A DNA stretch of 64,000 bases from Micromonospora sediminicola. GTDB lineage: Bacteria > Actinomycetota > Actinomycetes > Mycobacteriales > Micromonosporaceae. Of this stretch, positions 22,925 to 49,557 are shown in pieces. Numbering within the stretch: position 1 is the stretch's first letter; the number at the start of each line of letters is the position of its first letter. Location of the stretch: positions 2,308,501-2,372,500 of the forward strand of contig NZ_FLRH01000003.1 in assembly GCF_900089585.1 (NCBI RefSeq), written 5' to 3'. Under the pieces are notes generated by a model. It was not told the origin of the DNA. It ran no database searches and saw only the letters and a program-made list of their open reading frames with translations. Both the position numbers and the translations under genes were made by a program.

Positions 22925-23346
22925 CGGCAGGCCCGGGCGAGCTGCCGGTCGACGACACGGCGGTGACCCGGCTCGGCTCGGGCGGCCCCTGGGAGGCGCT
23001 CTACGGCTACTCGCGGGTGGTCCGGGCCGGGTCCCTGGCGATCACGGCCGGCTGCACCTCGACGGTGGACGGCCGGGTGGCGCACGTGGGGGACGCGGCG
23101 GCGCAGACCGCGCAGGCGATCCGGATCGGCCTGGACGCCCTGGCCGAGGTGGGCGCCACCCCGGCCGACGTGGTGCGGACCCGGATGTACGTGACCGACC
23201 GGCTCTACGTCGACGAGGTCGGCCGGGCGCACAACGCGGTGTTCGGTCCGGTGCGTCCGGTGGCGACCATGGTGGTGGTGGCCGGGCTGATCGATCCGGA
23301 GCACCTGGTCGAGGTCGAGCTGGAGGCGTATCTCCCCGTCGGCTGA
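22921..23346 (+). CDS. RidA-family (YjgF/YER057c) protein
   Basis: 141 aa, trimeric RidA fold. Family features: [44 protein letters not shown], and RTRMYVTD, which carries the Arg that deaminates enamine/imine intermediates in true RidA enzymes. GTG overlaps the priA stop by four bases. Members often sit with amino-acid biosynthesis genes, where they remove reactive intermediates from PLP enzymes. It is the last gene of the hisD-priA transcript. Confidence 0.88.
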
Positions 23347-23394: not shown

Positions 23395-23692
23395 CGGTGC
23401 CTTTCGAGCTGATATCGGAAACGACTCACCCACGCGGCCATGTCCGGCGGCGGGGCCCGACCCGCGGCGGCGGCGAGGGCTTAACCGCGGCGGCGGCGAG
23501 GGCTTAACCGCGGCGGCGGCGAGGGCTTAACCGCGGCGGCGAGGGCTGACCCGCGGCGGCGAGGGCTGCGGCGGCAGGCCGGGAAGAGCCGGGCCGCTCC
23601 GGATGTCCGGAGCTGCCGGCGGCGGGGCGCGGCCCGTCCGGATGCCCGGCGCGGTGCCTGAGTCGTTTCAGGTATCAGCTCGAAAGGCGGTG
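23395..23692. mobile_element. MITE-like element with 29-bp terminal inverted repeats and 5-bp target duplication
   Basis: The left end at 23400-23428 begins CCTTTCGAGCTGATATC and finishes AACGACTCA. The right end at 23659-23687 is its inverted copy, with 27 of 29 bases matching, finishing GCTCGAAAGG. The whole element is 288 bp. The five bases directly outside the left end (23395-23399) and right end (23688-23692) are both CGGTG, as expected for a target-site duplication. The interior is GC-rich and non-coding with 23-bp tandem repeats, so any movement would need a transposase in trans. A related, decayed copy lies at 48426-48645. Confidence 0.7.
23462..23568. repeat. 23-bp tandem repeat inside the MITE-like element
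   Basis: Three perfect 23-bp units (23462-23484, 23485-23507, 23508-23530), each beginning CCGCGGCGGCGGCG and ending GGGCTTAA, followed by two shortened variants (from 23531 and 23551) lacking one CGG triplet and ending in GCTGAC or GCTG. Confidence 0.9.
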
Positions 23693-48425: not shown

Positions 48426-48645
48426 CCTTTCGAGCTGAGTCGTTTGTGATATCGCGCTGCCCCGAGGGACGCAGCGGGCCGCCTCCACGCGCAGTCGACA
48501 CCACGCCGCCGGGAATACGCTGCGTGGCTCACCCCGATACCGCCGGTCCGGCCGAGTGGCGTCCGGTCCTGCGCCCTCCCGGTGGTGACCGCCGTCCTGG
48601 CGAGATCCCCCGTGCGCTGAGTCGTTACTGATATCAGCTCGACAG
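48426..48645. mobile_element. Decayed second copy of the MITE-like element
   Basis: The right end 48617-48645 matches the right end of the 23.4-kb element (24 of 29 bases, opening TGAGTCGTT and ending GCTCGACAGG). The left end keeps the outer ten bases CCTTTCGAGC (48426-48435), but the next 18 bases (48436-48453, TGAGTCGTTT to GATATC) are in the opposite orientation to a normal left end, as if inverted in place. No target duplication is visible (GCACG versus CGTCG). Interior 163 bp is unrelated to the first copy. Confidence 0.55.
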
Positions 48646-48745
48646 GCGTCGGAAAGAGACCCAGCCCGGCCGAGCGAGTCGAGGCGGCCTTGTCCGGCTG
48701 ACGGTCCGCCCGAGGCCGCCCCCCGACACAGTCGCGGCTCGCCTC

Positions 48746-49000
48746 GCGTCGGTCGCCACCTCGCGTGGGCCGCGACTTCGCGTGGGCCGCGACTTCGCGT
48801 GGGCCGCGACTTCGCGTGGGCCGCGACTTCGCGTGGGCCGCGACTTCGCGTGGGCCGCGACTTCGCGTGGGCCGCGACTTCGCGTGGGCCGCGACTTCGC
48901 GTGGGCCGCGACTTCGCGTGGGCCGCGACTTCGCGTGGGCCGCGACTTCGCGTCGGCCCCTGCTCGGCGTCGGCCCTCGATCGGCGTCGGCCCGCTCAGC
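48746..49000. repeat. 17-bp tandem array (VNTR-like)
   Basis: GCGTGGGC recurs at exact 17-bp spacing at 48763, 48780, 48797 and so on to 48933: eleven copies of the unit GACTTCGCGTGGGCCGC, with only the first differing (CACC for GACT). Degenerate 17-bp units continue on both sides (48746 and 48950-49000, GCGTCGGCCC). Each unit contains the short inverted pair TCGCG and CGCGA. Confidence 0.95.
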
Positions 49001-49011
49001 GCCGATGCCGC

Positions 49012-49557
49012 TCAGCGCCGGCCGGTGTCGAAGCCACCTGGCGACCGCTGGCCGGGCGGCGTGCCGACGCCGTCGGACGGATGCGCGTCCGGCGGCGGCG
49101 GGTCGGCGGCGGGCGTGTTCCGGAGCACGCCGGAACGGCCGGCGAGCGCGTCCACGAGGGCGGCCCGGGTGGCGGGGGTGAGCGCGCGGGGCAGTGCGTC
49201 CGAGGGGTGCCACTCGGGATGGCAGCCGGGTGCCGATTCGCCGGCCGGAGCGCCACCCGTCGGCCGGGCGCGGAACACGTGCACCAGGACGTCCGGCGCG
49301 GGGCCGCAACGGCCGGCCGGGGGCACGGGAGCGCTCGGATCGGCGACCCGGTAGAGGCCGACCAGGTCGACCAGGTCGACGAGCCAGCCGGTCTCCGCGC
49401 GGATCGACCGGACGGCGGCGTCGGGCGGGTTCTCGTCGTGGCGCAGCCGCCCGCCCGGCAGGCCCCAGCGGGGTACGCCGCCGGAGCGCCGGCAGAGCAG
49501 CACCCGGCCGGACCCGTCGCTGACGACCGCGGCGACCGCCCAGGTGAGCGCGCTCAT
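49012..49557 (-). CDS. NUDIX-fold protein with degenerate Nudix box
   Basis: About 181 aa. The strand VLLCRRSGGVPRWGLPGGRL leads into the Nudix helix region GGRLRHDENPPDAAV then RSIRAETGW. Against GX5EX7REUXEEXGU, the first E after R is Ser and one of the EE pair is Ala, so two metal-binding glutamates are missing. The last 35 residues are Pro/Asp/Gly-rich. ATG 49557; TTG 49563 possible. Its 3' end abuts the tandem-repeat region. It may hydrolyse a nucleotide diphosphate weakly or be a binding protein. Confidence 0.75.
   Translation of the reverse strand: MSALTWAVAAVVSDGSGRVLLCRRSGGVPRWGLPGGRLRHDENPPDAAVRSIRAETGWLVDLVDLVGLYRVADPSAPVPPAGRCGPAPDVLVHVFRARPTGGAPAGESAPGCHPEWHPSDALPRALTPATRAALVDALAGRSGVLRNTPAADPPPPDAHPSDGVGTPPGQRSPGGFDTGRR

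Follow-up and report, generated by a model that had tools for sequence, protein, structure and literature searches.

A dispersed intergenic repeat of Micromonospora with constant half-sites and a candidate role as a protein-recognition site

Bacterial MITEs, including types with 5-bp duplications such as those derived from Tn3, have terminal inverted repeats, contain no ORF, and occur in many copies. Dispersed chromosome-organising sites such as matS and parS consist of a short protein-binding motif that is repeated round the chromosome. We are not aware of any REP-like system in actinomycetes, and a non-exhaustive literature search (titles and abstract openings) returned no description of a Micromonospora repeat of the kind presented here. 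In the account of Nunvar et al. (2010, PMC2817692), REP/BIME sequences are proposed to be protein-binding sites, and repeat and trans-acting factor are said to coevolve. According to the same account, REP/BIME systems with a RAYT have more than 100 copies per genome, and the RAYT gene always lies between two inverted REPs.

The locus examined here lies in a 64,000-nucleotide stretch of the Micromonospora sediminicola genome (contig NZ_FLRH01000003.1, positions 2,308,501 to 2,372,500), which is referred to as the window. Based on our reading of the window translations, we assigned the names hisA, ridA, marR, ohr, and hisF to genes in the region. The element is located between the ridA stop codon at 23346 and the start of the marR-type gene at about 23780. 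An initial annotation had described a 288-bp MITE-like element with 29-bp inverted ends, and the ends were confirmed: 27 of 29 bases agreed between the left arm and the reverse complement of the right arm, and CGGTG was found directly outside both of them (Table 1). An alternative delimitation (23399 to 23433 and 23654 to 23688) yielded 35-nt arms that were 89% complementary. The element had also been described as lacking an ORF. This was borne out for ORFs of at least 100 amino acids, the shortest in the ORF list, and the gene caller predicted no gene between the ends. A tRNA-linked element was considered and rejected, as there was no tRNA within the window. When up to three mismatches were allowed, the end pattern had three matches in the window and none in 100 shuffles; the third match was an extra single copy downstream of trpA. 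Further copies were present elsewhere in the genome, and the ridA element belongs to a multicopy, non-coding family that is dispersed in the genome.

How this family compares with the systems described above depends on the feature. Terminal inverted repeats, the lack of an ORF, and many copies are shared with bacterial MITEs; unlike MITEs, the Micromonospora family has no family-wide duplication or common interior, and its ends are conserved at orthologous sites. As with matS and parS, a short motif is repeated round the chromosome, with protein binding being putative here, but the Micromonospora motif is often found in inverted pairs and its copy number differs among species. In being short, extragenic, and arranged in alternating or inverted orientation, the units resemble REP/BIME sequences as outlined in PMC2817692, whereas the apparent copy number of about 45, the lack of a Y1 gene in the genome, and interiors of up to about 380 bp differ from the REP/BIME systems with a RAYT outlined there. 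We give an even chance to the idea that the family is a REP/BIME-like dispersed element that was once mobile and whose ends are now kept as protein-recognition sites. The main rival is a classical MITE family, in which non-autonomous copies were moved by a trans-acting transposase that makes 5-bp duplications and are now old and decaying. The inverted ends, the absence of an ORF of 100 amino acids, the many copies, and the perfect CGGTG pair agree with such a family, which we nonetheless consider rather unlikely in view of the flank, interior, and orthologue data presented below.

Table 1. Coordinates of repeat features in the window
Feature	Position	Strand	Remarks
Left 29-bp motif of pair	23400..23428	+	Model R1, 31.5 bits, E 1e-8
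Right 29-bp motif of pair	23659..23687	-	Model R1, 24.9 bits, E 1.3e-6
Interior, 230 bp	23429..23658		Length not conserved: 96 bp in G023, 16 bp in G018
23-bp tandem array, 4.5 copies, within interior	23462..23561		
CGGTG outside left end	23395..23399		Candidate duplication; family-wide not above chance
CGGTG outside right end	23688..23692		
Single motif, second family site in window, about 480 bp downstream of trpA	48618..48646	-	
Compact copy, probably decayed, consisting of an outer box and one inner box; upstream of single motif	48426..48453		Model R1, 12.4 bits (E 0.012) and 9.2 bits (E 0.13)

The end motif was CCTKTCGAGCTGAT-N2-C-N4-ACGACTCA, and the 29-bp unit consisted of an outer box (CCTKTCGAGC) plus the constant half-sites GAGCTGAT and ACGACTCA, which were a fixed 7 bp apart. 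With up to three mismatches, the end motif had 44 matches in the M. sediminicola genome (G000) versus none for the reversed pattern; a looser pattern had 53 matches (three of them weak) versus one in the control, giving a copy number of 44 to 53 pattern matches. Using a pattern that allowed up to two mismatches, we gathered 45 distinct ends from the loci. These ends represented 27 mapped sites (a few looser-pattern matches, such as those near C3:1090870 and C4:328738, are left out), including 15 with inverted pairs, 11 with a single motif, and one with a direct pair. The 15 sites contained 16 inverted pairs that were 75 to 440 bp long, and the interiors between inverted units ranged from 17 to about 380 bp.

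Among the 45 ends, GAGCTGAT and CGACTC were 98 to 100% conserved per column, and C, T, and T were found at positions -5, -4, and -2 in every case. CCT, GAGCTGAT, C, and ACGACTC were near-invariant, and the six bases that surround the fixed C were variable. The interiors of different copies were unrelated, which argues against a MITE family; the exceptions were related loci such as L020/L021/L022 and L057/L076. L020, L021, and L022 were similar over about 1.4 kb (88 to 93% identity), and in each a motif pair was located upstream of a small secreted protein gene that is presumably C39-peptidase-like. L020 also contained another inverted repeat between genes, which was based on CGAGATCTTGG / CCAAGATCTCG (1942 to 1995), and the pair in L184 (G164) enclosed a CGAGATCTTGG stretch similar to this L020 repeat. 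A compact form of 39 bp, in which a single inner box stands between two outer boxes, was found in five loci; losing the interior that separates the two inner boxes could produce it.

Based on the gene caller, 25 of the 27 sites were wholly intergenic; L005 started inside a predicted gene, and L026 touched a stop codon. In the G023 orthologue of the L005 motif copy (1148 to 1169), the last half-site bases were changed. The sites were located in 9 convergent, 17 tandem, and 1 divergent gaps, compared to 4, 25, and 7, respectively, for window gaps larger than 20 bp. The convergent-to-divergent ratio at the sites therefore differed from that of the window gaps (9:1 versus 4:7, p 0.024), although neither the convergent excess (p 0.057) nor the divergent deficit (p 0.12) was significant separately. 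A minus-strand gene at about 49020 to 49557, which we take to be NUDIX-like, was missed by the gene caller; hence, the trpA gap of the window (L041), which was counted as tandem, would be convergent. No Pfam model matched more than two of the neighbor proteins (46 of 54 scanned).

The bias toward convergent over divergent gaps is one of two observations that favor a long-range RNA hairpin serving as a bidirectional terminator or a 3' end stabilizer; the other is that the 298-nt window stretch folded with a z of -5.8. We consider this explanation improbable, as 11 of the 27 sites had a single motif, the two single motifs that were folded were no better than shuffles, and no T run was found directly behind either window arm. 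Moreover, the arms did not co-vary in the M. sediminicola pairs (53 of 96 spacer bases versus 51.5, p 0.39). No compensated pairs were found inside the single motif, and Rfam yielded no matches. The lack of covariation within the motif or between the arms points to recognition as DNA, and the combination of constant half-sites, a free spacer, and no RNA covariation is consistent with a protein that recognizes double-stranded DNA. Strong hairpins located between a gene's stop and the motif (-25 kcal/mol or lower at 26 of 32 gene ends) were discounted because the window's own stretch was no better than shuffles (z -0.06).

Another explanation is that the units are REP/REPIN elements whose maintenance depends on a RAYT (Y1 tyrosine transposase). 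The units are short, mostly extragenic, and arranged in inverted pairs with a clade-specific consensus, and the genus consensus of GAGC plus TGAtGTCGTNNACGACTCA resembles a head followed by an imperfect palindrome. In addition, the compact 39-bp form folded as a hairpin with a bulge. Against this, G000 had no match to the Y1 transposase model (PF01797), and a hand count over 160 genomes revealed no association between Y1 and the motif, which was present in 36 of 45 genomes with Y1 and 85 of 115 genomes without it (p 0.54). The palindrome is also broken in this lineage, and compensation was seen in no pair. Overall, 78.6% of cells paired, which was no excess over shuffles. The link to a RAYT was rejected based on the Y1 results, and we find this explanation very doubtful.

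The initial annotation had viewed the CGGTG pair as a perfect 5-bp target duplication, and as evidence of transposition this did not withstand comparison with the rest of the family. Identical 5-bp flanks were found in 1 of the 16 M. sediminicola pairs, compared to 10 of 240 combinations of left and right flanks from different pairs. In a set of 52 pairs drawn from all loci examined, orthologues included, all five bases matched in two pairs (the window pair and its G023 orthologue) versus 30 of 2652 mismatched pairings, and 104 of 260 flank bases matched versus 101.1 in permutations (p 0.35). Equal 5-mers at the flanks are common because the ends have a weak flank consensus, namely C at -11 (69%) and G at -7 (78%). 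Given these statistics, CGGTG alone is not acceptable as a target duplication.

Other features of the flanks are easier to reconcile with a MITE family, since the consensus at -11 and -7 could be a target preference and direct matching was raised at some of the nine lengths tried. Specifically, the M. sediminicola pairs had 18 of 64 matches versus 11.5 at k=4 (p 0.017), with a tendency in the same direction at k=5 (45 of 80 versus 39.2, p 0.07). In the 52-pair set, the lengths with raised matching were k=4 and k=10 (p 0.04 and 0.009, respectively). An old, decayed target duplication may be behind this signal. However, inverted flank matching exceeded direct matching at k=5 in the 52 pairs (124 versus 102.9 in permutations, p 0.002), though no excess was seen in the M. 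sediminicola set (32 versus 39.8). A pairing of the outer flank with the spacer, which was prompted by L113 and other loci, was examined in 167 ends and rejected, as it showed no excess (z 0.4 to 0.8).

A MITE family moved in trans might also be expected to have an autonomous relative, and the initial annotation had proposed a transposase encoded elsewhere. No autonomous element with the same ends, and no transposase between such ends, was found among the matches listed in M. sediminicola and other genomes, and the M. sediminicola matches included no pair 1 to 3 kb apart. The sole long pair among the matches listed in other genomes was a 1.67-kb pair in G151, and the gene that it encloses is one we read as phosphotransferase-like.

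We used RidA as a query to collect the same gap from relatives. RidA had matches in 81 of 121 genomes; the best 30 of the 81 were taken as loci, and 28 gaps were readable. Because RidA was the query, these loci were unbiased by the motif. A pair was present at the same ridA site in M. maritima (G023; interior of 96 bp) and G018 (16 bp), and a pair at this site in G164 (L183) was reached through the motif. The ridA-gap copy is thus common to at least four species, which does not support a recent insertion. The bases of this copy have not changed evenly. When half-site and outer-box bases (42 conserved positions) were compared with spacer bases (12 positions), G000 and G023 differed at 0 of 42 versus 3 of 12 (Fisher p 0.009), and G000 and G018 differed at 1 of 42 versus 7 of 12 (Fisher p 3e-5).

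The element was absent from 25 of the 28 ridA gaps, as a MITE family would lead one to expect, and part of an empty site may survive in G083 and G019. None of the 25 gaps provided a clean empty site that was continuous with both flanks; specifically, none aligned the right flank plus more than three left-flank bases. In G083, G019, and G021, an alignment that continued into the right flank began at CGGTG or slightly ahead of it (uncorrected p values of about 0.01, 0.02, and 0.26, respectively), and CGGTG was found one base past the ridA stop codon in three genomes (G021, G083, and G121). These observations make an old insertion at CGGTG conceivable. An all-against-all locus comparison called 1116 highly redundant rows absent, and the ridA gap dominated the rows listed. 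A stricter run (at least 88% identity, flanks within 150 bp, and ridA loci excluded) produced one case, the trpA gap of L266 versus L261, which was not clean. In L468 and L467, an occupied and an empty gap followed a common hairpin, with no readable duplication. The MITE description held for dispersal, copy number, and lack of coding capacity, and it was not supported for the duplication, recency, a shared interior, or, among the matches listed, an enclosed transposase.

The ridA-marR gaps of G088 (L122), G126 (L123), G073 (L133), G069 (L135), and G034 (L144) contained other inverted repeats, which were of a CTCTTTCACGGAAAGAG type and a GAGCGCGATACCTCAGAG type. It is as if this gap tolerates or attracts inverted-repeat elements.

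The second site in the window allowed a similar comparison. TrpA was present in 159 of 160 Micromonospora genomes, and we read 70 trpA gaps, consisting of 30 returned loci and 40 genomes that were hand-picked and hence non-random. The anchor strand was verified for 30 of the 70, and five gaps were shorter than 1500 bp (39, 195, 533, 590, and 1178 bp). The motif was found downstream of trpA in 19 of the 70 genomes, with 26 matches in 100 kb versus none in the reversed sequence. Among 17 minus-strand copies (136 pairs), identity was 87% at conserved positions, 51% in the spacer, 34% in the flanks, and 31% in random segments; the conserved positions were picked from the motif itself. Gapped flank scores were 6.7 and 6.6 compared to 6.4 (sd 2.6) for random segments, indicating that the flanks no longer align, although G032, G181, and G009 have tccgcgagcg in common beside the motif. 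Since the trpA copies were detected with a matrix, which favors intact copies, the comparison at ridA is cleaner. At these fixed sites the motif bases outlasted the flanks, which is a further point against a MITE family.

Two additional observations concern the trpA gap. In G164 (L258) and G168 (L248), the 10-bp core found as CTGATATCAG in the M. sediminicola lineage appeared as CTGACGTCAG and CTGAGCTCAG, with both middle bases changed and the palindrome kept. In the window, a tandem array was identified by eye at about 48760 to 48955, with ggccgcgacttcgcgtgg as its 18-bp unit.

Within the Micromonosporaceae, the strict motif pattern appeared to be confined to the genus. The strict pattern was found in 52 of 354 Micromonosporaceae genomes, all of which were among the 160 Micromonospora genomes; the 194 genomes of other genera had no match, and no control match was present among the rows listed. 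A named scan of genome contigs yielded at least 120 stretches, and all 80 that were listed were from Micromonospora. Model R1, a sequence-only model built from 42 copies and used to score up to 46 candidates per genome, detected the motif in 121 of the 160 Micromonospora genomes, with per-genome counts that reached at least 46. The remaining 39 genomes had no match under the filters used, which means either that these genomes can do without the function or that their motif has diverged. Phage records contained no match, and plasmid records yielded one, which was weak, 53 bp long, and located in a record from Nocardia.

Of the 16 G023 loci examined, 14 shared their flanking sequence with a motif locus in G000. 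The consensus in G000 and M. maritima was ACGACTCA with GATATCAG-type spacers, and that of the copies read from G149, G132, G133, G002, G098, and G175 was ACGATTCA. Another clade had near-identical, mostly single copies (CCTTTGGAGCTGATGTCGYAAACGATTCA), which fits recent copying as well as selection. A variant motif, CNANNTTGATGNCGTNNANGACTCA, was found in 15 of 160 genomes at up to four copies apiece. In L187 (G119), three direct motif copies were observed at a 92-bp spacing.

In the REP/BIME-like explanation that we prefer, the units most likely spread first by copying, and two inverted units often flank a free interior. A putative sequence-specific DNA-binding protein would recognize both half-sites and keep the units in place, and the sites retained would be mostly those in gaps behind a gene end. 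The role of this protein might be to organize the chromosome or to isolate neighboring transcription units. A related idea, which we regard as possible but hold tentatively, is a genus-specific site system in which a putative protein reads the paired GAGCTGAT-N7-ACGACTCA in gene-end gaps, with the two co-changing clade by clade. Such a protein would loop or insulate neighboring transcription units or organize the chromosome, and it would change together with the motif, so that the consensus would move in concert among the copies of a genome.

The results indicated that, in a GC-rich genome, a flanking repeat of 5 bp may be perfect without necessarily being a target duplication. If the family is a fossil mobile element, then the sites that are fixed would serve as a useful clock for intergenic turnover. 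If the units are protein-bound, then they would offer about 45 mapped sites per genome at which to study chromosome organization or the isolation of transcription in Micromonospora, an antibiotic-producing genus.
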